Positions 2,415-37,245 of a stretch of DNA of 45,468 bases are shown here, piece by piece (within the stretch, counting starts at the first letter, position 1; every line of letters starts with the position of its first letter). The DNA is taken from positions 1 to 45,468 of IMG/VR virus record IMGVR_UViG_3300045119_000187; one strand, written 5' to 3'. The notes below the pieces were generated by a model. That model had not been told where the DNA came from. It made no database searches and saw nothing but the letters and a program-made list of their open reading frames with translations. The position numbers were made by a program, and so were the translations under genes. Origin of the DNA: a virus.

Positions 2415-4267
2415 CCACGGCAGTAGACACCGAAACCCTTCTCTTCCGCCCTGGGATGATGGCCCCTCCGTTGGTGTGTCTCTCCTGGCCTGACGGGGTT
2501 TTGCATCGTACGGATGCCTGGCAAGCGAAAGTGTGCGAGCTCATTCCCGGCGGCATCGTGGGCCATCATTTCGCCTACGATGCCGCCGTTATGTGTGCGA
2601 CCGATCCGGGTATGTGGCCGATTCTAGTGGACGCGTACGAGCGTGACCTAGTGACTGATACGATGTTGAGGCAGAAGCTTCTGGACGTCGCGGCCGGTAT
2701 TAGGTCCTATGAAGACGAGAACGGCAAAGCGATCAAGGTGTCCTATTCCCTGGACGGCGTGGCTCGGCGCCTGTGTGGTATCCAGTTGGACAAGTCGAGC
2801 GTCAGGTTACGCTATCAAGAGCTTTGGGACGTACCGATCTCTCAATGGCATCCCTCATTTTATCACTACGCACGCGACGATGCGAGGGCGACGCAACAAG
2901 TGTGGCAAGCGCAAGAATCCCAAAGCACGTTCCTACAGGACCAATACCGTCAAGCCCGCGCCGCGTTTTGGATTCAGCTCATGGCCGTATGGGGGTTACG
3001 CACAGACTTGAAGGCTATCGAACGACTCGAAAGCAGGGTTCGCGAGGAGCATAACATCTTGGCGGCGGACCTTCTCACCCAAGGTTTGCTAAGGCGAGAG
3101 CGAAAAGGACTCGTCAAAAACATTAAGGTAGTCGCCGAACGGGTTGCGTGGGCCTACAGTTCCACGGGTCGCGAGATTCCCTTGACCCCCAAGGGCAACG
3201 TAGAATGCGACCGCGAGACCTGTCTAACCAGCGGCGACGCGTTGCTCGCTCAATACTCTGCTTTCGGGCGACTGAATACGTTGCTCTCAGGGGACTTGGA
3301 CCGCTCCGGCAACAAGAAAAAGCATCCCCTATGGGAGGGCGTCAACGCGCCGATCCATAGTCGCTTCGATACCATCCTAGAAACGGGACGCACGTCATCC
3401 TCTGCACCCAACGTGCAGAACAAAAGGCGCGATGGTTTCCCCTGTAAGGAACACAAGGCGTTTGACGCCCGATGCGAGAATTGCGTAGGTGTTCGTGAGT
3501 GCTTCGTCCCTCGAGAGGGATTGGTGTACGTCGCGGCGGACTACGGCGGATTGGAGTTGTGCACTCTAGCGCAGACGTGCGTCACCCTGCTAGGTCGCTC
3601 TTCTCTGGCGGACATCCTGAACGCGGATAAGGACCCGCATATGATGGTCGCGGCGGACATCCTCGGATGGTCCTACGAGCAATGCAAGGCGTACAAGGAT
3701 GATCCTGCCTACGCCAAAATGATTGACGATGCCCGACAGACGGGCAAGGTGGCCAACTTCGGTTTCCCCGGTGGACTGGGCGCCAATGCATTGGTTCATT
3801 TCGCTAAACAGACTTACAACGTCACTTTGACGGTGGATGAGGCTAAGGCACTAAAGAATACCTGGTTCCGCATCCTGCCTGAGATGAGGGATTACTTCCA
3901 ACTAATCGATCAGATGACCAAATCCCAGGGGTATATCATCCAACTATTCAGCGGACGATACCGAGGCGGACCAAGTTATACGGCGGCGTGTAATTCGTTC
4001 TTCCAAGGCTTGGGAGCGGACATCGCGAAAGCCGCCGGATGGGAGGTAATGAAACTCTGTTATCGGGAGAATAAGGCACGCATCGTGAATTTCGTGCATG
4101 ATGAGCTGGTAACGGAAGTCCACCCTGATTACGTGCAGGAATGGGCGCCCCTACTAAGCAAGACGATGATCGACGCCGCGAAACCATGGCTACCTGACGT
4201 CAAGATCAAGGTCAGTGTAGCGGCCATGAAGAGGTATTCCAAGGGCGCAAAGGGGTTGACTCTGTGA
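2411..4267 (+). CDS. Family A DNA polymerase with 3'-5' exonuclease domain, CTG start
   Basis: The replicative polymerase, 618 residues. Motif A is DYGGLEL at about residue 377, motif B includes K446 and GKVANFGFPGG, and motif C is VHDEL at about residue 562. The exonuclease motif I DTET is at residues 6-9. It lies upstream of the first ATG (2456), so an ATG start would destroy it. The frame is closed by a stop at 2405-2407, and the only near-cognate start between is CTG at 2411. That CTG overlaps the previous stop as CTGA and has GGGAG about 9 bases before it. Start codon CTG is therefore strongly indicated. The gene ends in a GTGA overlap with the resolvase. Confidence 0.93.
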   Translation: MTTAVDTETLLFRPGMMAPPLVCLSWPDGVLHRTDAWQAKVCELIPGGIVGHHFAYDAAVMCATDPGMWPILVDAYERDLVTDTMLRQKLLDVAAGIRSYEDENGKAIKVSYSLDGVARRLCGIQLDKSSVRLRYQELWDVPISQWHPSFYHYARDDARATQQVWQAQESQSTFLQDQYRQARAAFWIQLMAVWGLRTDLKAIERLESRVREEHNILAADLLTQGLLRRERKGLVKNIKVVAERVAWAYSSTGREIPLTPKGNVECDRETCLTSGDALLAQYSAFGRLNTLLSGDLDRSGNKKKHPLWEGVNAPIHSRFDTILETGRTSSSAPNVQNKRRDGFPCKEHKAFDARCENCVGVRECFVPREGLVYVAADYGGLELCTLAQTCVTLLGRSSLADILNADKDPHMMVAADILGWSYEQCKAYKDDPAYAKMIDDARQTGKVANFGFPGGLGANALVHFAKQTYNVTLTVDEAKALKNTWFRILPEMRDYFQLIDQMTKSQGYIIQLFSGRYRGGPSYTAACNSFFQGLGADIAKAAGWEVMKLCYRENKARIVNFVHDELVTEVHPDYVQEWAPLLSKTMIDAAKPWLPDVKIKVSVAAMKRYSKGAKGLTL

Positions 4268-6981: not shown

Positions 6982-7210
6982 CCTTCAAGGTTTGCTAGAA
7001 GAATTCGCAGAGCGTTCGGCTTCGCGGCTATACAAGGAAGATTTACAAGGTTTCCGTATTATCTCTTCCCCCTTCGGTCCCCCATCAGAAGGAAAACCCA
7101 CAGCCTGTAAATGCTGTGGTAAGTCTGTAACCCAGCAACCTACAGGGCGTCCGCGTAGTTTCTGTCTCTTATGCGCTAGGGCGCATGGCAAGAAATGTTC
7201 TCACAAGTAG
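6974..7210 (+). CDS. Small zinc-ribbon protein
   Basis: A 78-residue protein whose C-terminal half has CKCCGK and CLLCARAHGKKC, a likely Cys4 zinc ribbon in a basic context. It lies immediately before the large terminase and overlaps it by 16 bases. A DNA-binding accessory role is possible but unproven. Confidence 0.55.
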   Translation: MVDLQGLLEEFAERSASRLYKEDLQGFRIISSPFGPPSEGKPTACKCCGKSVTQQPTGRPRSFCLLCARAHGKKCSHK

Positions 7211-8712
7211 AATCCACGCTCGGAGCCCGGAGTCTTTATGACTTCGTTCGCATGGCTTGGAGCGAACTAGAGCCCGGTCCGTTCGTCCCAAATTGGCATC
7301 TAGAGGAGATTTGCACTCATCTTGAGGCAATGTCCAGGATTGAGATTCGCAACCTGGTAATCAATATCCCGCCGGGTACTCTTAAAAGCCTACTCGTCAA
7401 CGTCTTCTGGCCGGCTTGGGAATGGATCGAACGCGCTCCCACGAAGTTCATTTACTTCTCGTATGACTCTTCTCTCGTCGGCGCTCGCGACGGCGGGAAG
7501 ATGGTCGACTTACTAAATAGTCAGTGGTACAAGGAACGGTGGGGCGTCAAGCTCTTGAGCCCCAATCCCTCATCCTACAACTTTGACAATACCTCGGGGG
7601 GATTCCGTTTCGCATCATCGCCGGGCGCTAAGGGCACCGGTCGCCATGGGAATATCGTAGTCATTGACGATCCGGTCAAACCCCCTGACGAATCGATGAC
7701 GTCAGCCATTACCCTCAAAGCCCTTCAAAGGGTTAGCGCCTGGTGGGGTGGACGCGCTGTCAGCCGTCAAGCGGACCCGAAGACGCATCGACAATTGTTG
7801 ATTATGCAACGGGTCCACCATGGGGACCTTGCGGGGGAGTTTATTGGAGAGGGGTGGACGCTTCTGCGCTTTCCGATGCGCTTTGAATCCTCACTCCGTT
7901 GCTCAACGGCTTGGGGCGGCGACCGTCGCAAGGAAGACGGCGAACTTTTGATCCCTCAGCGCTTCGGGGAACAGGAAGTCAAGTCCCTTGAAAGGGGCAT
8001 GGGCCCAACCATCGCATCGGCGCAATTGCAGCAACGCCCCAACGTCAAAGCCGGAGGTATTTTCAAAAGGGCTTACTGGCAATTCTGGCACTATCAGCCA
8101 GATATCCGAGTCCCTTGCCTATGCGATGAATGCTTCGACAAGGGGTATAATCCCGACTGTCCCAATCGCCCGATGACGGCGTGCGAAGTCCTGCCGGATA
8201 ACGGATACGATTTTACCTCTTGGGATATGGCGTTCAAAGGACTTGACACGTCGGACTTTGTATCCTCCGGGACTTGGCGAGCGATCAGTGGGAAGTATTT
8301 TTTGCTTGACATCGGCAACGAACGCATGGGTTTCGCGGACAGCAAGCGCGCTGTCATGCGACGGGCGATCCGCTGGCCGAGCGCTGGCGTGCACCTGGTA
8401 GAGGACAAGGCCAACGGTCCGGCCGTCGTGGATGAGCTCAAGAGCACGATCCCGGGCCTGGAATTGGTCAACCCGGAAGGTGGCAAGGAAAGCCGTGCCG
8501 CCGCGAGTGAGGCGCCGCTAGCAGATCTCCGAGTCTTTGTCCCGCATCCTGCGCTAGACTCGCTCACCTGGACCTTGCTGCAGCAAGCGGAACAGTTCCC
8601 GAACGCTGTCAACGATGATCTTGTCGACATGATGACCCAAGCGTTGATTCACGTCCGTGCGAAGGGACTCGATATGTTCCACGAAGCAATGGCAGCGGTG
8701 CGACATGCCTAA
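7195..8712 (+). CDS. Terminase large subunit
   Basis: The 505-residue packaging motor ATPase-nuclease. Walker A is IPPGTLKS (K64), Walker B is IVVIDDP (D158-D159), and the C-terminal RNase H-like nuclease begins at FTSWDMAF, with further acidic residues at LVEDKANG and VNDDLVDM. It cuts and translocates concatemeric DNA into proheads through the portal, which is the next gene. No small subunit lies beside it; a candidate is at 36484-37245 on the other strand. Confidence 0.95.
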   Translation: MFSQVESTLGARSLYDFVRMAWSELEPGPFVPNWHLEEICTHLEAMSRIEIRNLVINIPPGTLKSLLVNVFWPAWEWIERAPTKFIYFSYDSSLVGARDGGKMVDLLNSQWYKERWGVKLLSPNPSSYNFDNTSGGFRFASSPGAKGTGRHGNIVVIDDPVKPPDESMTSAITLKALQRVSAWWGGRAVSRQADPKTHRQLLIMQRVHHGDLAGEFIGEGWTLLRFPMRFESSLRCSTAWGGDRRKEDGELLIPQRFGEQEVKSLERGMGPTIASAQLQQRPNVKAGGIFKRAYWQFWHYQPDIRVPCLCDECFDKGYNPDCPNRPMTACEVLPDNGYDFTSWDMAFKGLDTSDFVSSGTWRAISGKYFLLDIGNERMGFADSKRAVMRRAIRWPSAGVHLVEDKANGPAVVDELKSTIPGLELVNPEGGKESRAAASEAPLADLRVFVPHPALDSLTWTLLQQAEQFPNAVNDDLVDMMTQALIHVRAKGLDMFHEAMAAVRHA

Positions 8713-12389: not shown

Positions 12390-13217
12390 ATGGGAATCGG
12401 AATTTATCCGCAAACGTCCGTTGCTCAGTTCCCGGGGGCTGCGTTCGCCGGTATGCTTGGCGATTCCTGGTTCGGACAGGATATCGAATCCGGGGTGTGT
12501 TCTGAAACGGCCGGGTTCGAAGCGGGAATCGCTGTCATTCAGGACGGCGATCCCGGAGTGCTTCCCGGCAACGCTCAAAAGGTGAAGTTGCCGGTAGACG
12601 CAACTTCGGTGGTGGAAGGTTTCACGATCTTCCGCACTATGAAACAACCGCAAAGCCCCCGCTTCGCGTTGTACGATTCCGTCGGCGTCCTGAAGAAGGG
12701 CCGGATCTGGTGTCTCTGTCAAGCCAACGTCAATCAGGGCGATGATGTTTATGCCTGGTACGCCAGTTCCGGCGGAACCAAGGGCAGCATCCGAAACGAT
12801 GCGGGTAGCACCCAAGCTGTCAAGGTCCGTGGCGCTCGTGTCGTCCGTGGTGGACTCGCCGCCGGTTTCGCGTTGATCGATTTCAATTGGCCCGAGGCTT
12901 CTGCCGATGCCTCGGTTCAGAGCGGCGGCAACTGGAACGTTACGGCTGTCAAGACTTCGGCCTATACCGCTGTCATCGGCGATTTGGTTCTCGTCGACCC
13001 GACGGGCGGAGCATTCACTGTCACGCTGCCTACGGCCGTTGGTGTCTCTGGCCGGTCGATCCGTATCTTCAACAATACAGCTTCGACCACTGCCGTTACC
13101 GTCGCTACGACGTCTTCTCAGACGATCAACGGCGGTGCTACCGCCACCATGAACACCGCGCATGCCGGTAAGGACTTCACGTCCGACGGCGCTAATTGGG
13201 TCATGGTCGAAGCGTGA
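12390..13217 (+). CDS. Structural cement protein with C-terminal decoration domain
   Basis: A 275-residue protein. Residues 1-170 resemble phage structural cement proteins (N-terminal PQTSVAQFPGAAFAGMLGDS, later VLPGNAQKVKLP). The last ~88 residues form a beta-rich domain (GDLVLVDPTGGAFTVTLP, RIFNNTASTTAVTV, SQTINGG, NWVMVEA). The same domain is repeated as the whole of the next gene. It probably sits on the outside of the capsid. Confidence 0.82.
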   Translation: MGIGIYPQTSVAQFPGAAFAGMLGDSWFGQDIESGVCSETAGFEAGIAVIQDGDPGVLPGNAQKVKLPVDATSVVEGFTIFRTMKQPQSPRFALYDSVGVLKKGRIWCLCQANVNQGDDVYAWYASSGGTKGSIRNDAGSTQAVKVRGARVVRGGLAAGFALIDFNWPEASADASVQSGGNWNVTAVKTSAYTAVIGDLVLVDPTGGAFTVTLPTAVGVSGRSIRIFNNTASTTAVTVATTSSQTINGGATATMNTAHAGKDFTSDGANWVMVEA

Positions 13218-13504
13218 TCAATACGGTAGAAGTAACCGGACCGTTTACTGCCGATCATACTGCCAACGTTGGGCAGTTGGTTCAAGTCGACCCGACGGGC
13301 GGAGCGTTTGCAATCAATTTGCCCAATGCGAAGTTTTGCAAAGGGCAATCTGTTCGAGTAGTAAACGTTTCGTCTAGTACCACTGCCGTTACCGTTACGG
13401 CCCGGTTTTCACAAACGATCAACGGAACCGCGACGTTGGCCATGACTACGGCTTACGGCTCCAAAAACTTCACGTCCAACGGCTCCAATTGGCTCGCGTA
13501 CTAA
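13214..13504 (+). CDS. Stand-alone copy of the decoration domain
   Basis: A 96-residue protein from GTG 13214 (GTGA overlap). It is clearly homologous to the C-terminal domain of the gene before it: GQLVQVDPTGGAFAINLP, VVNVSSSTTAVTVT, SQTINGTATLAMTTAYGSK and SNWLAY align almost column by column. This is a tandem duplication that split off one domain, likely a minor head decoration protein. Confidence 0.8.
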   Translation: MINTVEVTGPFTADHTANVGQLVQVDPTGGAFAINLPNAKFCKGQSVRVVNVSSSTTAVTVTARFSQTINGTATLAMTTAYGSKNFTSNGSNWLAY

Positions 13505-26831: not shown

Positions 26832-27307
26832 TTTCGTTCGGTCTCGGCGTCTATGGTGGTGGAGTATTCGGTGGCGGAGGTTCGTCCGGCCCGTCATCTG
26901 CTGCAACGGTCCTTTCCGCTACCGGCTACGCCGCTACAGTAGCATTCGACCCTGCGACCAATGACGTTCACTTTTCTAGTCTCCAAATCGCCAAAGGTGA
27001 CGATGCAATCGCCCAAAAGGTGCGTCAAGTATTGGGCTTCTGGCTAGGCGAATGGTTCTTAGATATCCGGCTCGGGATTCCCTACTTGCGTGAATCGGGC
27101 GGTATCATCTTCGGTTTCAAGAATCCTAATATTCCGGCCATCAAAAGTGTTTTCCGTAAGGCTCTATTGAAGGTCCAGCAAATCAACCAAGTCCAATCGT
27201 TAGACTTGACGCTAGACCGGCCGAGCCGTCAAGGGTCTCTTGATTTTGTAGCTATTCTAGATGACGGGCGCACCCTAACCGCGAAAGACGAGCCTTTCAT
27301 TGTCTGA
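26828..27307 (+). CDS. Baseplate wedge protein (gp25/DUF2634-like)
   Basis: A 159-residue protein. A Gly-rich start is followed by QKVRQVLGFWLGEWFLDIRLGIPYL and IKSVFRKALLKVQQINQVQSLDLTLDR, matching the W-family wedge proteins that precede baseplate J. It would start sheath assembly from the baseplate. Confidence 0.85.
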   Translation: MISFGLGVYGGGVFGGGGSSGPSSAATVLSATGYAATVAFDPATNDVHFSSLQIAKGDDAIAQKVRQVLGFWLGEWFLDIRLGIPYLRESGGIIFGFKNPNIPAIKSVFRKALLKVQQINQVQSLDLTLDRPSRQGSLDFVAILDDGRTLTAKDEPFIV

Positions 27308-28526
27308 CGTCGTAACGGCCAATGGTCTCTCGATTCCCACGATCGAAGATCTGCTTACTGACATTGGCAATGATTTGCGCGCGACCATTGACGCCAACCT
27401 CGATACGGACCCTGATTCTCCCATGGGTCAAATCAATGGCATCATGGCGGAGCGTTTGCGCCTTCTATGGGAATTGGTCTCAGTAGCCTACAACGCTCTA
27501 GACCCTGACGCGTGCGAAGACTTTCTACTTGACGCCACGTCAGCCATTACGGGGACCATTCGAGGTGCGGCGACACCTAGCACCGTCGTGCTCTCTCTGA
27601 ATCTGGACGCGACGACTACCGTAGCCGCTGGCGCCCTTGTGAGCGTCCTAGGGGAGCCTACCAAGGTATTCCGCCTTGACGCCGATGTGACTAGCGTCGG
27701 TGCTGGCAACTACCCCGGCAACGCTACTTGCACGGTCTCAGGCCGGACCGTAGCGAACGCCGGAACGCTAACGGTGATTCAGAGTCCAACTACAGGTTGG
27801 AACGCTGTTACCAACGCCCGCGACGCTATCCTAGGACAGGAACGGGATACCGATCCTGAACTACGGGTAAGGCGTGTCAACGAATTGGAAGCGTCCGGCG
27901 CCGGAACCGTGGACACCATCCGCGCTAAGGTTCTGCAAATCACCAATGATGATGGTAGCAAACCGGTACTCGACGCCGTAACTGAGGAGAACACCGGCGA
28001 CTATATCAACGCGTTCGGTATCCCGGCGCATTCAGTCGAAACGGTTATCTGGGATGACCTAGGACAGAACGCACCGAACGATTCCGTAGCGCAAGCAATC
28101 TGGGATACCAAGGGTGCGGGGATTACCGCATTCGGGAACACGTCCGGGACCGCTACCGACAAGCAAGGCAATCCGCAAAACGTTGCGTTCTCGCGCTGCG
28201 CCATCATTAACGGAAAGATGGCTATCACAGTAGAAACAAACGTAGCGCGCCCGGACGACTACGCCGGGGATGCCGCTCTCAAGGCGGCATTGGTCGCTCA
28301 AGTCGAAATTAAAGCAGTGCTCGGCGTAACCGAAGTCCGAGCTACACACTACGTAGCAGCGGCGCAAGGCGCTGGACTCGGCGTTCTAGATGTTACCAAT
28401 TTACAGATTGGCAACGTGCTATCTTCGTTCGGTGCCAATATGCAAAACTTCGACGTCCCATTTCGAACTAAGTTTCTATTGGATACGAGTAACATTACCG
28501 TTACCCGTGTCCAGGTCACTCCGTGA
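27300..28526 (+). CDS. Baseplate J-like protein
   Basis: A 408-residue protein from TTG 27300. IPTIEDLLTDIGNDLRATIDANLDTDPDSPMGQINGIMAERL, DTDPELRVRRVNELEASGAGTVDTIRA and the C-terminal VLGVTEVRATHY are classic for J/gp6-like wedge proteins. Together with the preceding wedge protein it builds the baseplate. The stop overlaps the response-regulator GTG. Confidence 0.93.
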   Translation: MSDVVTANGLSIPTIEDLLTDIGNDLRATIDANLDTDPDSPMGQINGIMAERLRLLWELVSVAYNALDPDACEDFLLDATSAITGTIRGAATPSTVVLSLNLDATTTVAAGALVSVLGEPTKVFRLDADVTSVGAGNYPGNATCTVSGRTVANAGTLTVIQSPTTGWNAVTNARDAILGQERDTDPELRVRRVNELEASGAGTVDTIRAKVLQITNDDGSKPVLDAVTEENTGDYINAFGIPAHSVETVIWDDLGQNAPNDSVAQAIWDTKGAGITAFGNTSGTATDKQGNPQNVAFSRCAIINGKMAITVETNVARPDDYAGDAALKAALVAQVEIKAVLGVTEVRATHYVAAAQGAGLGVLDVTNLQIGNVLSSFGANMQNFDVPFRTKFLLDTSNITVTRVQVTP

Positions 28527-28876
28527 TCTTGATCGTGGACGACAGCGAACCGACACGACGCTGGCTCTCGCGCTTGCTAAAGACGCTAGGCGAGGATTCG
28601 ATCAATGCTGCGAACGGCAACGATGCGATCACGCTGCTGGAATGCTTCGCGGTCGAGATAGCGCTAGTTGATTTCACAATGCCGCGCGGGGGCCCCGAAC
28701 TTCTACGACGCATCAAGGAACATTGGGACATCCCGGTCATTCTCGTGACAGGCTGGCACCCCGAAGCAGTCGAGGGTTTGAATTATGACGGATATCTCTT
28801 CAAGCCGGTTGACCAAGCAGATCTCCGAATCGAACTCGCGCGAGTTCGGAAGCAACATCCCAGCAAACGCCCCTGA
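28523..28876 (+). CDS. Stand-alone CheY-like response regulator receiver
   Basis: A 117-residue single receiver domain, starting at GTG (GTGA overlap with baseplate J). All phosphorylation residues are present: acidic pair D6-D7, phosphoacceptor D50 (LVDFTMP), T76 (LVTG) and K94 (LFKPVD). It would be phosphorylated by a host histidine kinase and change partner binding; no output domain is attached. No kinase is present in the window. A receiver inside a tail/lysis operon is very unusual. The following gene starts inside its 3' end. Confidence 0.92.
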   Translation: MILIVDDSEPTRRWLSRLLKTLGEDSINAANGNDAITLLECFAVEIALVDFTMPRGGPELLRRIKEHWDIPVILVTGWHPEAVEGLNYDGYLFKPVDQADLRIELARVRKQHPSKRP

Positions 28877-29474
28877 CTGGGCCAAGGCCCTGGCGCAATA
28901 CAACCACCAGCGCTTTGACAAGATCGAAGGATCTCTTGAGAGCATGTCGGAACTGGTTGGGCGCGTCATGGGCTTTACCATGCAAACCAAACAGATCGGC
29001 GAGGGTGTCAAGGAACTTGCCGAAGTAACGGCCGCACGCGTTCAGGCCTTCATGTCGTCGCAAGACAAATCAGATGATATCACGAAAAAGGATATCGATA
29101 TCCTTCGCAAGCAAATGCGAACGCTCCGTCGTGATGGTGTATTTGACCGGAGTAGCCACCCGGACGGGATTACGACAGACCAGCGCAACGCTATCACGGC
29201 AGCAGAAGCCGGTAAGATCGCACATGAAGCCGACGAACGCCGCGAGCGAGAGCGTGAAGTACGCGAGCTCAAAGAAGAGATCCAAGTCATGAAAGCAGCT
29301 TCTCTCGTAAAAGAAGCCGCAGCCGAAAAGACGCGAGACCGTCTACTTGATAAGATTCTGATTCCGATCATGACCGGAATTGTGCTAATCGTCGTGTCTG
29401 TATACGCTACGTGGCGAATGACTAGGCCCGCGGTCCAATTCGAAATGAAGGAAGCGCCTCACAATGCGAAGTGA
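28785..29474 (+). CDS. Coiled-coil protein with one C-terminal membrane helix
   Basis: A 229-residue protein. ATG 28785 overlaps the receiver gene by 92 bases but has a good ribosome site (GAGGG, 8 bases before). The region to ~residue 180 is helical and highly charged (ERREREREVRELKEEIQVMK), then comes one hydrophobic helix (ILIPIMTGIVLIVVSVYATW) and a short tail. The layout resembles a spanin-like or envelope-anchored scaffold. The overlap couples it to the receiver, which may be its partner. Confidence 0.75.
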   Translation: MTDISSSRLTKQISESNSREFGSNIPANAPDWAKALAQYNHQRFDKIEGSLESMSELVGRVMGFTMQTKQIGEGVKELAEVTAARVQAFMSSQDKSDDITKKDIDILRKQMRTLRRDGVFDRSSHPDGITTDQRNAITAAEAGKIAHEADERREREREVRELKEEIQVMKAASLVKEAAAEKTRDRLLDKILIPIMTGIVLIVVSVYATWRMTRPAVQFEMKEAPHNAK

Positions 29475-29739
29475 ACCCTTGTTGATTGTCGGCGGTATTG
29501 CTCTTGTGCTCGCGGTCGTATGTGCGATCGGCCTGAACGTGACGCACACTCCGGTGTCGATGGTCGAAGCGATCTTGACCGCGGCCGTGCCTATCATCGG
29601 CCTGGTTCTAACTGGACGCACGCAAACATTCTCCCAAAAGACCACGGAAAACCTCGTGGCTAACGCGTTGTCAATCATCCCTCCGCCTGTAGCAGAGACG
29701 CGCGAGCTTGCGCAAACTCTTGTCAAGGATGCAAAATGA
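29464..29739 (+). CDS. Two-helix membrane protein, holin candidate
   Basis: A 91-residue protein with two hydrophobic helices (LLIVGGIALVLAVVCAIGL and MVEAILTAAVPIIGLVLTG) and a soluble C-terminus. Size and topology fit a class II holin, and it lies just before a lipoprotein, a protease and a lysozyme. Function inferred from topology and context. Confidence 0.65.
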   Translation: MRSEPLLIVGGIALVLAVVCAIGLNVTHTPVSMVEAILTAAVPIIGLVLTGRTQTFSQKTTENLVANALSIIPPPVAETRELAQTLVKDAK

Positions 29740-30020
29740 AACTCGGATTGATTGCTTTGCTGATTGCCATTCCCTCCTGTACCCCCACCACAGGAGCAAT
29801 CACCGGCGACATCTTGACGGGGTTGTGTGACGTAGGTTTCGTCGCACTCGGCGCACCCGGGGCTATGCCTATTTGCGCGGACATCAATACGATCGAGCAA
29901 ATGATCGCGAATCGAAACAAGACTACGGCCGGCGCGGGTGTCGTCGCCCCGATGACGCAAACTGACCTCTACATGATGGTCAAAGCTTCCGGTCAGTACA
30001 AGCCGGCGAGGGTCAAGTAA
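29736..30020 (+). CDS. Small lipoprotein, outer spanin candidate
   Basis: A 94-residue protein with a signal peptide and lipobox-like end (MKLGLIALLIAIPSC), so the mature lipoprotein would begin at Cys15. The mature part has two more Cys and a helix (INTIEQMIANRNK). It lies in the lysis-like block and could be an o-spanin with the coiled-coil protein at 28785 as partner. This pairing is inference. Confidence 0.7.
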   Translation: MKLGLIALLIAIPSCTPTTGAITGDILTGLCDVGFVALGAPGAMPICADINTIEQMIANRNKTTAGAGVVAPMTQTDLYMMVKASGQYKPARVK

Positions 30021-30021
30021 C

Positions 30022-30687
30022 ATGCTCCGTATGCATACTCCCGAAATCAAGATCGGTGGCAAGCGACTTGGCCGTAACGTATCTCATGATCCGCGCTCTC
30101 GTGAGTTCCCGGTCAAGATGTCCGACGAAATCAAAACCGTTGAATGGCAACGCGAGGTTCCGGTTTTCAATCAGGGCGACATCGGCTCGTGTACTGGCAA
30201 CGCATGCGCCGGTGCTCTAAGCACGCTTCCGTTTGGTAAGAAATTCTCCGAACGTGACGCATTGGCGCTCTATTCAGCGGCCACCCATAAAGATCGGATT
30301 CGGGGTATCTACCCCCCGAACGACACCGGTAGCAGCGGTCTTGCGGTCATGAAAGCCGCAAAGTCTCTCGGCTACATTTCGAGTTATACACACGCATTCA
30401 GTTTCGAGCACATGTTGCATGGTCTCATGTCTGGGCCGGGCATCGTCGGCATTTCATGGTTGACCGGATGCGACAACCCGGACCGAGATGGGCTCGTCAA
30501 GTATGATGGCGCTATGCGTGGGGGACATGAAATCGAAGTGTTCAAAGTTGACGTTGAAAAGCAGTTGATCGGTTTCTGGAATTCGTGGGGTGCTGATTGG
30601 GGAGCTAACGGTGCGTTCTTTATGTCGTGGGAGGATTGCGCTTCCGCTCTCAGCAATCGAGGGGATGCTACCTTTCCCATTGCATGA
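30022..30687 (+). CDS. Papain-like cysteine protease (C1 family)
   Basis: A 221-residue protein. Oxyanion Gln51, nucleophile Cys57 (NQGDIGSCTGNA), His169 (GGHEI) and Asn187 (FWNSWG) give the full papain set in order. No signal peptide is seen. Phages rarely carry C1 proteases; possible targets are host envelope proteins or peptide crosslinks. It lies between lipoprotein and lysozyme genes, so a role in lysis or in virion entry is plausible. Confidence 0.9.
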   Translation: MLRMHTPEIKIGGKRLGRNVSHDPRSREFPVKMSDEIKTVEWQREVPVFNQGDIGSCTGNACAGALSTLPFGKKFSERDALALYSAATHKDRIRGIYPPNDTGSSGLAVMKAAKSLGYISSYTHAFSFEHMLHGLMSGPGIVGISWLTGCDNPDRDGLVKYDGAMRGGHEIEVFKVDVEKQLIGFWNSWGADWGANGAFFMSWEDCASALSNRGDATFPIA

Positions 30688-30938
30688 CCCCTCCGCCCGG
30701 ACCTAAAACGACTGATCAACGTCAAGCCCAAACGATTGCGCTTGCAATTATTGACAAATTAGAAACAATGGCCGAGCAAGCCAGTGCCGACGGAAGATCT
30801 ACAGTAGGTAGCGGAGTATCTCTAGCTATTGAAGGCAAGATGTTGATTTCCGCGACCCCGATTGATTGGTCTCTTTTGTTGGATTGGAATCGTCGCGCAT
30901 GTGATTGGCTCATGAGGAATAGGCAGGTAAAACCATGA
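30684..30938 (+). CDS. Small hypothetical protein in lysis block
   Basis: An 84-residue protein from ATG 30684 (ATGA overlap with the protease). It has a helix (QAQTIALAIIDKLETMAEQ) and a W-rich end. No signal peptide or membrane helix. Unknown function. Confidence 0.6.
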   Translation: MTPPPGPKTTDQRQAQTIALAIIDKLETMAEQASADGRSTVGSGVSLAIEGKMLISATPIDWSLLLDWNRRACDWLMRNRQVKP

Positions 30939-31750
30939 GGCTACTCCGAAACTCCGAAGTAACGCCCGAAATGGCTAAATGGGCTTGGGCCGTTGGCGCT
31001 AGCCTTCATTGGCAAGTCGGAGCTACCGAGGCACACACGTTCGGAAGTCTGAACGTGCTTGCTAAGGTCGAAGTCCACCACGACTCGACTGCTAGCAATC
31101 CAATTCCACATGACCATCCAGGAGTAACTCTCTACCAGTCAGACGCCGCGCCGCCCGAGGTAGTCCCGACGCATGAAACGTTGCCGGAAGGCATTGACGT
31201 CAACGGACAGGACGTAGACTGGTCGCAAGTCATGACGTCCGGACGTTCATTCGCCTTCATCAAAGCAACGGAAGGTGTCACTTGGACTAGCGGACGCATG
31301 GTCCAGCACTTCGACGGCGCGGGAGGTGTAGGGTTCAAGCGCGGCGCATATCACTACTTCCGCGCGCGTGACGGCGCGGAGCAAGTGGATCATTTCCTGT
31401 CGACCATCGACGGACACGATTGGGAATTGCCGCCGGTGCTTGATATTGAAGTAGCGGACGGACAACTGTTGTCCGTAGTGGCGGACCGAATCGCGGCATG
31501 CATTGAGGCCATGCCGAAAGACTTTCTAGTCTACACCATGCCGGGTTTCTGGAATGGTCTCCCTCTCGAGGTAGCGCAATTGGGCGAAGCACGCCTATGG
31601 GTCGCGACTTGGGGTCCTCGTTGGCTCGCTTGCAAGAATCTACCTTCACCGGTCATCTGGCAGTATAGCGCTACGGCTTCAGTACCCGGGTTCCAAGGCC
31701 ACGCGGACGTCAATCGTGTTCTAGATTTGGATTGGTGGAACACGCTTTGA
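30935..31750 (+). CDS. GH25-like lysozyme (endolysin or tail lysozyme)
   Basis: A 271-residue protein. From residue ~85 it is a GH25 muramidase: GIDVNGQDVDW (D88), SFAFIKATEG, GAYHYFRAR, PPVLDIE (D170, E172) and WQYS near the end. The first 84 residues begin with WAWAVGASLHWQVGATEAH and are not part of GH25. They may be an attachment domain. It cleaves peptidoglycan glycan strands. No signal peptide, so release would need a holin. Confidence 0.9.
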   Translation: MRLLRNSEVTPEMAKWAWAVGASLHWQVGATEAHTFGSLNVLAKVEVHHDSTASNPIPHDHPGVTLYQSDAAPPEVVPTHETLPEGIDVNGQDVDWSQVMTSGRSFAFIKATEGVTWTSGRMVQHFDGAGGVGFKRGAYHYFRARDGAEQVDHFLSTIDGHDWELPPVLDIEVADGQLLSVVADRIAACIEAMPKDFLVYTMPGFWNGLPLEVAQLGEARLWVATWGPRWLACKNLPSPVIWQYSATASVPGFQGHADVNRVLDLDWWNTL

Positions 31751-32322
31751 TTGAGCGCATCGACAACCACGTCGAACAAGGCCTCGCGCGGCTCATCTCT
31801 CAGTATCAGAACGCCGTCCAGTTCAAGCTTTGGATCTCGGTATATCTCCGACAAATTCAACGCATCGAAGATGGTATTTGGGAAGTAATCTACGCTCGCA
31901 ATATTGACAGCGGTATTGGTGTACAGCTTGATCTGATTGGCAAGATTTTGAACCGGGCGCGCGGAGGATTGTCAGACGATGATTACCGCATCGCACTGCG
32001 CGCGGAGATTGCAATCCTCCGAAGTACCGGAACGGCGAACGACCTAGAGACCGTCGGCAATCTGAGTCTACCATCCGGATATACGTTCACGTTGACTGAT
32101 GAAGGTAACGCCGCGTTGCTCGTACAGATTGATCAACAGGTGCTTTTCAGCGCGACGACGTTTCTCGAGAATCTCATCCGCGCCAAACAAGGCGGCGTTA
32201 AACTCTTGTTCGAGTACAGCACCAACGCCCCGGGAACTGATTTCACTTGGACCGACGGACCGGGCTGGGATGACGGACTTTCTAACGTAGGTGGCTTGAT
32301 GGTTTCGGTGCAAGGTGTTTAG
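31732..32322 (+). CDS. Tail terminus protein (DUF2612-like)
   Basis: A 196-residue protein with DUF2612 features: YLRQIQRIEDGIWEVIYARNIDSGIGVQLDLIGKILNRARGG and DDYRIALRAEIAILRSTGTANDLE. These follow baseplate J in this phage group and connect fibres to the baseplate. Here the pair is separated by ~3.2 kb of receiver and lysis genes, which may be a later insertion. Confidence 0.88.
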   Translation: MVEHALIERIDNHVEQGLARLISQYQNAVQFKLWISVYLRQIQRIEDGIWEVIYARNIDSGIGVQLDLIGKILNRARGGLSDDDYRIALRAEIAILRSTGTANDLETVGNLSLPSGYTFTLTDEGNAALLVQIDQQVLFSATTFLENLIRAKQGGVKLLFEYSTNAPGTDFTWTDGPGWDDGLSNVGGLMVSVQGV

Positions 32323-35323: not shown

Positions 35324-35638
35324 GTGAAAACTCTACTCCCCGTCCTGTTCCTGCTCTGCCTCGCCGGATGCGTCGTCTCCCCGGCGCCCGGCTACGAAGG
35401 CTCCACTGATGCACCCATCGCGCAAGACCCCGAGCCTTGGCGCGCGTGCGTTCTGGACCGGCCCGTGTGCGTCGAAGCCGTCTATTGCGACGCGGACGCT
35501 CTCGAGAACGATCCGCGCTGCTACACCTACGCCGAGGGAGCGTGCGCCGTGCGTCCGGTGCCACGGGGCGAACAGTGCCTGGACGTGGACCGGTCGTCCG
35601 GGGTTGGGCACTGCGACGGCCAAGGGGTGTGCCGATGA
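35324..35638 (+). CDS. Cys-rich lipoprotein, possible exclusion or conversion factor
   Basis: A 104-residue protein from GTG 35324. Signal peptide and lipobox LLCLAGC are clear, with acylated Cys18 followed by VV, so the mature protein may go to the outer membrane. The mature part has eight Cys (ending GVGHCDGQGVCR), probably disulphide-bonded. Such small phage lipoproteins can block superinfection; this is inference. Confidence 0.75.
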   Translation: MKTLLPVLFLLCLAGCVVSPAPGYEGSTDAPIAQDPEPWRACVLDRPVCVEAVYCDADALENDPRCYTYAEGACAVRPVPRGEQCLDVDRSSGVGHCDGQGVCR

Positions 35639-36483: not shown

Positions 36484-37245
36484 CTAGCCAACGGCTTTGA
36501 TCATCAATTCTCGCCAAAGCCTCAATTCTTCGACCGAGAATTTGCTAAGGTCGAATTCTTCCTTAGTCTTTTCTACCTCAGGAATAGCGGCGGCCGCACG
36601 TTCGACTGTCGTCCCCACTTGGACATAGCGCAGGATATCCCGGGGTTCGAGGCGCATTACTTCGTTGGCATCTGATTGCTCGGCCAACTTGTTGAGCTCA
36701 CGTTCGGCGACCTTTTGGACCTTTCGAGCCAACTGGCCATGACGACGGGCGATAGACTCAATTTCGTCTTCGATCGCAGCTCGGCGTAAGGTATTCAGGT
36801 GCGCATCCCATTTGGCGCACCTGTCGTCCCATCGGCCCGAGTAGGCCCACGCCCGCAATAGGCTGGGCTGGTGGTTTGGGTGCATTTTCGCAAGGCGTTC
36901 GATCTTGCGGGGTGCGTTCATCCCAAAACAGTAGTCCTGGAAGATCGCCCACGGAGCGTCCGAGTCCCAAGCTTGACGCTCCCAAGGGTTCCCGAGATAG
37001 ACCGATGAATCAGAAGGATGCACTACCCGCCTTGCGTCGAGCGTAAGAGCGAAAAGGCATTGGCGCAAGGGGTATTTGGATCTGGCCGTCCAAAACTGTT
37101 CAGGTAAGGCAATGAAGGTTAACGCGCCGGACGATGACAATTGCCGGGCCGCGTTAATTATTGGATTAAAATCTGCTCGCCGAAGATTAAATAGGTAGTT
37201 TTTACACCTACAAGGTAAGATATTGCACTGCAACATGAGTCGCAT
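36484..37245 (-). CDS. Terminase small subunit candidate
   Basis: The C-terminal ~165 residues resemble HTH-containing small terminases: NPWERQAWDSDAPWAIFQDYCFG, PRKIERLAKMHPNHQPSLLRAWAYSGRWDDRCAKWDAHL in pattern, then a long helix and LEPRDILRYVQVGTTVERAA. These bind packaging sites. Three starts are possible: ATG 37245, ATG 37236 (AGAGGG nine bases before) and GTG 37023 (AAGG before), the last giving a usual family length of 179 residues. Unusually it is on the strand opposite TerL, about 28 kb away. Confidence 0.68.
   Translation of the reverse strand: MRLMLQCNILPCRCKNYLFNLRRADFNPIINAARQLSSSGALTFIALPEQFWTARSKYPLRQCLFALTLDARRVVHPSDSSVYLGNPWERQAWDSDAPWAIFQDYCFGMNAPRKIERLAKMHPNHQPSLLRAWAYSGRWDDRCAKWDAHLNTLRRAAIEDEIESIARRHGQLARKVQKVAERELNKLAEQSDANEVMRLEPRDILRYVQVGTTVERAAAAIPEVEKTKEEFDLSKFSVEELRLWRELMIKAVG

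Follow-up and report, generated by a model that had tools for sequence, protein, structure and literature searches.

Gene organization of the receiver locus

The window, the whole 45,468-base viral record analyzed here, holds a single receiver gene, which lies between a baseplate gene and a run of lysis-type genes. Its only close relative is a sister phage (IMGVR_UViG_3300047316_000145, locus L002), so the window lineage comprises two members. The region contains the following features:

27300..28526, plus strand: baseplate J/wedge protein, directly upstream of the receiver (PF04865, E 3.2e-10; phrog_6 baseplate wedge, E 4.1e-37)
28523..28876, plus strand: stand-alone receiver domain protein, GTG start, 117 aa (PF00072)
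Receiver residues: D6-D7, 28538-28543; D50, the phospho-acceptor, 28670-28672; T76, 28748-28750; K94, 28802-28804
28772..28776, plus strand: GAGGG, Shine-Dalgarno-like, 8 bases before the 28785 ATG and inside the receiver's shortened α4-β5 region
28785..29474, plus strand: 229-aa all-helical protein with one C-terminal transmembrane (TM) segment (residues 191-209), by helix/TM prediction; conserved in L002
29464..29739, plus strand: 91-aa protein with two TM segments by hydropathy; holin-like by topology only, no Pfam or PHROG match
29736..30020, plus strand: 94-aa predicted lipoprotein, lipobox IPSC; conserved in L002 (omega 0.13)
30022..30687, plus strand: papain-like cysteine peptidase (phrog_16701 peptidase, E 3.2e-48)
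30684..30938, plus strand: 84-aa protein, open reading frame only, no family match
30935..31750, plus strand: GH25 endolysin (PF01183, E 7.7e-27; phrog_291 endolysin)
31732..32322, plus strand: DUF2612 baseplate protein (PF11041, E 1e-6)

From J through the DUF2612 gene, neighboring genes overlap or nearly abut throughout. A reading made from the sequence only had placed the receiver in a tail/lysis operon, and J upstream together with the papain-like lysin and GH25 endolysin downstream bears this out. The 30022 product is 49% identical to gp26 of Arthrobacter phage Mufasa8, and its relatives in actinophages (Mufasa8, GMA2) carry the annotation cysteine protease or putative lysin and have lysin A, membrane proteins, or a holin as neighbors; in Gordonia phage GMA2, the relative Orf38, a "putative lysin", adjoins a putative holin. 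The product of gene 28785 has no convincing Pfam or PHROG family, no relatives were found in named phages, and its AlphaFold model (pLDDT 50) is too poor for use. Its earlier description as a coiled coil therefore holds as far as an all-helical protein with one C-terminal TM segment, and no further.

In phages whose J is 34-45% identical to that of the window (gene order in L006-L009), a DUF2612-type gene follows J directly or after one unrelated gene, and a search throughout their records found no receiver. The absence of the block from these distant relatives indicates that the receiver and lysis-type genes were inserted between baseplate genes. The receiver opens this block and is followed by the helical membrane protein, the two-TM protein, the lipoprotein, the papain-like lysin, and the GH25 endolysin. 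Neither a histidine kinase ATPase domain (PF02518, HATPase_c) nor an Hpt domain (PF01627) was found in the window or sister record, either of which may be incomplete; a complete phage-borne two-component system was set aside on this ground. A scan for sigma-70 promoters and terminators gave no promoter-like site, and terminator-like sites were no more numerous than expected by chance.

Four further features lie elsewhere in the window. A terminase-small-subunit-like gene (36484-37245, minus strand; phrog_6299, E 1.5e-8) is located ~28 kb from the large terminase gene (7195-8712). An AGC-rich repeat (family D1) recurs in six degenerate copies at 758-804 and 1415-1603, between and around early genes. 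A 67-base direct repeat, 72% identical, occurs in two consecutive genes (12964-13030 and 13257-13323) and is probably due to domain duplication in a virion surface protein. A predicted cysteine-rich lipoprotein with a signal peptide, possibly host-derived or an exclusion gene, is encoded at 35324-35638, downstream of the tail genes.

The product is a complete receiver

Gene 28523-28876 encodes a complete, intact stand-alone receiver under selection, reading MILIVDDSEPTRRW...ALVDFTMP...ILVTGW...GYLFKP. It matches PF00072 (Response_reg) with an E value of 7.5e-15 and 55.5 bits against a curated cut-off of 30.2. D6, D7, D50, T76, and K94 are all present here and in the sister phage; profile, sequence, and fold model thus agree with the sequence-only reading, which had called the receiver complete from these residues. 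Loss of D50 was looked for in relatives; L002, the single close one, retains D50. Y91, which occupies the position of CheY Y106, is likewise kept in both phages.

An AlphaFold2 model of the receiver (38 receivers aligned) has a pLDDT of 93.5 and follows the usual (β/α)5 order. The best Foldseek match in the PDB is CheY (E 1.1e-8, TM 0.87), and RR468, CpxR, MicA, and Spo0F fit the fold about as well. Because RR468, CpxR, and Spo0F follow so closely, the label "CheY" denotes a receiver here, not chemotaxis. Sequence identity is ~30% to CheY, RR468, and CpxR. The profile score, the five catalytic positions, and the (β/α)5 fold place the protein in PF00072; its 117 residues make up a receiver only, with no C-terminal DNA-binding domain, which separates it from PhoB/OmpR-type regulators.

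A search for close cellular homologues found none, the best being ~37-38% identical and cyanobacterial; recent transfer from a bacterium was set aside for this reason. An artefact or a frame-shifted tail of J is excluded, since the receiver has its own frame, Pfam match, and selection. Phage genes on both sides and the same site in the sister phage exclude host contamination or a prophage junction.

Gene overlaps and selection

The TGA stop codon of J and the GTG start codon of the receiver share the sequence GTGA (28523-28526), and the ATG of gene 28785 lies inside the receiver gene, leaving 92 bases common to both. Coupling to J and the 92-base overlap had been proposed from the sequence; both overlaps are real and recur in L002, where the Shine-Dalgarno-like stretch at the same place reads GAAGGG. 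Window and L002 proteins are 78% identical for the receiver, 75% for J, and 76% for the 28785 product, so the receiver has been in place for about the same time as its neighbors.

Outside the overlap, the receiver has an omega (dN/dS) of 0.079, with 43 of 62 differences between window and L002 at third positions, and selection on it is at the level of its neighbors. Within the 92-base overlap, the 28785 frame is constrained (omega 0.11), and the last 30 receiver codons vary in their own frame. The 28785 start is therefore real, the C-terminal part of the receiver gives way to it, and a wrong start for 28785 can be dismissed. The overlap with J suggests that the receiver is made with J through translational coupling. 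Both tight overlaps have persisted although synonymous divergence is nearly saturated, which favors a gene integrated into the operon.

A shortened α4 region

The spacing between T76 and K94 is 18 residues in the window receiver and its sister only, among 38 aligned receivers; elsewhere it is 22, bar a few (19, 20, 20, 24, and 24). In the AlphaFold2 model, α4 is reduced to four residues (80-83), and the α4 region is the shortest of the 38 receivers compared. The missing α4 turn coincides with the GAGGG and ATG of gene 28785 (28764-28804). From this position just before the ribosome-binding site and start codon, we infer that dual coding may have shaped the shortened α4-β5 region of the receiver.

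Receivers in other phages

A search for similarly placed receivers in other phages, proposed with the sequence-only reading, found them in Alteromonas phages. The authors of V22 and A5 (PMC7289586, PMC10579305) and of R8W (PMC8228385) label the CheY-like or PhoB genes of these phages class II auxiliary metabolic gene (AMG) or PhoB, the published readings being auxiliary metabolic genes or low-phosphate adaptation.

Most stand-alone receivers of these unrelated marine Alteromonas phages occupy a lysis cassette and have a small membrane-anchored helical protein as neighbor. V22, A5, and two IMG/VR relatives share one order: a helical protein with a hydrophobic N-terminus, the receiver, an Rz-like spanin overlapping the receiver, and a two-TM protein. 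The spanin has an Rz1-like lipoprotein nested in it wherever this was examined, and A5 has an endolysin after the two-TM protein. H4/4 and R8W share the order class II holin, one-TM protein, receiver, and membrane protein. R9Y1 and four IMG/VR relatives have a one-TM protein, the receiver, and a lysozyme (GH108 in R9Y1). XX1924 and PB15 encode an XhlA-like, C-terminally anchored helical protein (phrog_937 hemolysin, E 1.2e-12), the receiver, and a GTA-type 3TM holin, which in PB15 is separated from the receiver by an M15 peptidase; nothing of this receiver family was found in IMG/VR. Nearly all of these versions retain the active site.

V19 combines a one-TM protein with a degenerate receiver beside a two-TM protein. 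This receiver (L058:5937-6389) falls just under the Pfam cut-off, has lost the phospho-Asp and Lys, and lies on the strand opposite to most of its neighbors; it may reflect decay or phosphate-free use. The "phoP" of Stenotrophomonas phage Bhz63 was left out of the comparison because it is longer, a PhoP-like regulator of 239 aa with a PRK11100-type protein after it. Most tblastn matches labelled "phage" (Acinetobacter MD-2021a; OR84xxxx records of Listeria, Salmonella, and Staphylococcus; MT83xxxx fecal records) resemble bacterial DNA or lack annotation and were not counted.

In a maximum-likelihood tree (INDEPENDENCE), nine Alteromonas-phage-type receivers form one clade (99/94) and the window pair lies elsewhere (100/100); deep branches are weak, the sequences short, and the sampling small. 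The separation implies that lysis siting probably arose at least twice, and two recruitments probably fit the sequences better than one. The Alteromonas phages share a host genus, so those examples are not fully independent of one another. As a control, viral contigs were scanned with a generic receiver consensus, giving nine loci, none of which (0/9) lies in an evident lysis cassette. Phage receivers are therefore not generally tied to lysis, whereas a subset is. In two viral contigs, L075/L076 (around 1321-1683 and 3492-3854), the same stand-alone receiver precedes an apparent T4-type ssDNA-binding protein region, a position that has nothing to do with lysis.

We propose a grouping of lysis-cassette receivers. 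The window receiver lies in a run of lysis genes (papain-like lysin and GH25 endolysin, with 29464 a holin by topology only) and adjoins a small membrane-anchored helical protein (28785, TM 191-209). Common descent is not part of the likeness, since the 99/94 clade excludes the window pair, although deep branches are weak.

A candidate phospho-switch on lysis and its alternatives

We favor, at a probability of roughly 0.4, a late-expressed, putatively phosphorylatable receiver that tunes lysis, with a host kinase or acetyl phosphate as its phosphate donor. Overlapping genes would tie its synthesis to that of J and the lysis proteins. Because the phage encodes no kinase, D50 would take phosphate from a host histidine kinase or from a small donor such as acetyl phosphate. 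Phosphorylation would alter binding of the receiver to the membrane-anchored helical 28785 protein, or to the two-TM protein after it, and the altered binding would advance or delay holin triggering according to host state. Within this chain, we infer the phosphorylation, the partner, and the direction of the effect. The intact site and fold, selection at the level of the neighbors, the fixed place at the head of the lysis-type block, and comparable siting in unrelated phages favor this reading. Of the earlier suggestion that the phage reads a host signal to time lysis or alter chemotaxis, the lysis-linked half is thus favored by the intact, selected receiver, its late operon, and similarly placed phage receivers, and the chemotaxis half finds no specific support. 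Against tuning of lysis stand the viral receivers outside lysis cassettes (L070, L071, and L075/L076), the V19 cassette receiver without phospho-Asp and Lys, and a window lineage of only two members. Accessory genes are common at the tail-fiber/lysis junction, so a position there need not by itself signify function; lysis cassettes routinely contain small membrane-anchored helical proteins, whose adjacency to a receiver may be incidental.

The main rival remains close to a lysis switch: an abundant late receiver would act as a phosphate sink or decoy, draining or blocking host kinases of envelope stress, motility, or development without touching a lysis protein. A receiver with no output domain in a phage with no kinase suits such a role, and PIT4 of Pseudomonas phage LSL4, which binds the host kinases FleS, PilS, and PA2882 (PMC10714779), is a precedent in target, not in fold. 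PIT4 acts early, however; for taking over the host, late expression is badly timed, and a sink leaves the recurrent siting inside lysis cassettes unexplained; we regard it as possible but on balance doubtful. Next comes a moron-type accessory gene that serves host fitness in general and lies at an insertion-tolerant tail/lysis junction, as in the published AMG or PhoB-like readings of V22, A5, and R8W (PMC7289586, PMC10579305, PMC8228385). J relatives lacking the gene and viral receivers sited elsewhere agree with this, but the conserved tight overlaps on both sides indicate operon integration. A PhoB-like role, moreover, does not fit the window, R8W, and H4/4 proteins, which are too short (117 and 153 aa) for a DNA-binding domain. 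We judge this explanation unlikely.

The very short α4 region and the V19 receiver, an example of active-site loss in a cassette receiver, would suit a phosphorylation-independent use of the fold, as a factor in tail or lysis assembly. Retention of D6, D7, D50, T76, K94, and Y91 in both phages, and of the active site in nearly all Alteromonas-phage versions, makes this quite improbable. Least likely is that the receiver mimics CheY to act on the flagellar motor or on chemotaxis. Its best fold match is CheY and Y91 stands at the Y106 position, but the likeness is that of any receiver, with RR468, CpxR, MicA, and Spo0F matching about equally. The α4 region is part of the motor-binding face of CheY (α4-β5-α5); a T76-K94 spacing of 18 residues, against 22 nearly everywhere, and a four-residue α4 point to an altered face, which would make FliM binding doubtful.

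Returning to the lysis switch, we raise more tentatively the broader idea that unrelated phage families recruited receivers at least twice as lysis phospho-switches acting via a membrane-anchored helical partner, with the host phosphorelay or acetyl phosphate setting the lysis clock. This wider claim is somewhat doubtful. Phage stand-alone receivers as such are already known; until now they were classed as auxiliary metabolic genes, with no mechanism attached. The present analysis adds a second, unrelated lineage outside Alteromonas phages, the double overlap, the shortened α4, and the link between receivers and lysis cassettes. Literature searches on two-component signaling and lysis control, receivers and lysis timing, and phage-encoded response regulators, which covered subscription literature thinly, returned no published case. 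Should receivers be part of the lysis module, a host phospho-signal could act directly on the timing of lysis. Such a switch would link two-component signaling to lysis control and is testable in the cultured Alteromonas phages V22, R8W, R9Y1, and PB15.

Comparison with known systems

The window receiver shares the full active site and fold of the single-domain regulators CheY and Spo0F (PF00072). Unlike them, it is phage-borne, has no cognate kinase encoded with it, and spaces T76 and K94 by 18 residues rather than about 22. PIT4 is also a phage protein aimed at host two-component systems, but it is early, binds kinases, and is not described as a receiver (PMC10714779).

The nearest parallels are the receivers of Alteromonas phages V22 (gp30), A5 (gp11), R8W (gp48), H4/4 (gp44), R9Y1-3, XX1924, and PB15. 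Like the window receiver, these stand alone in the late tail/lysis region and adjoin genes for a small membrane-anchored helical protein and for an endolysin, holin, or spanin; the papers on V22, A5, and R8W present their versions as AMG or PhoB and draw no link to lysis. The window receiver belongs to a separate lineage, about 20-25% identical, and precedes its helical partner with a 92-base overlap and a short α4, whereas the Alteromonas-phage receivers follow theirs. The 28785 protein, though twice as long and without a PHROG or Pfam match of its own, has the same layout of a helical cytoplasmic part and a C-terminal TM segment as the XhlA-type proteins (phrog_937 hemolysin) of XX1924 and PB15.
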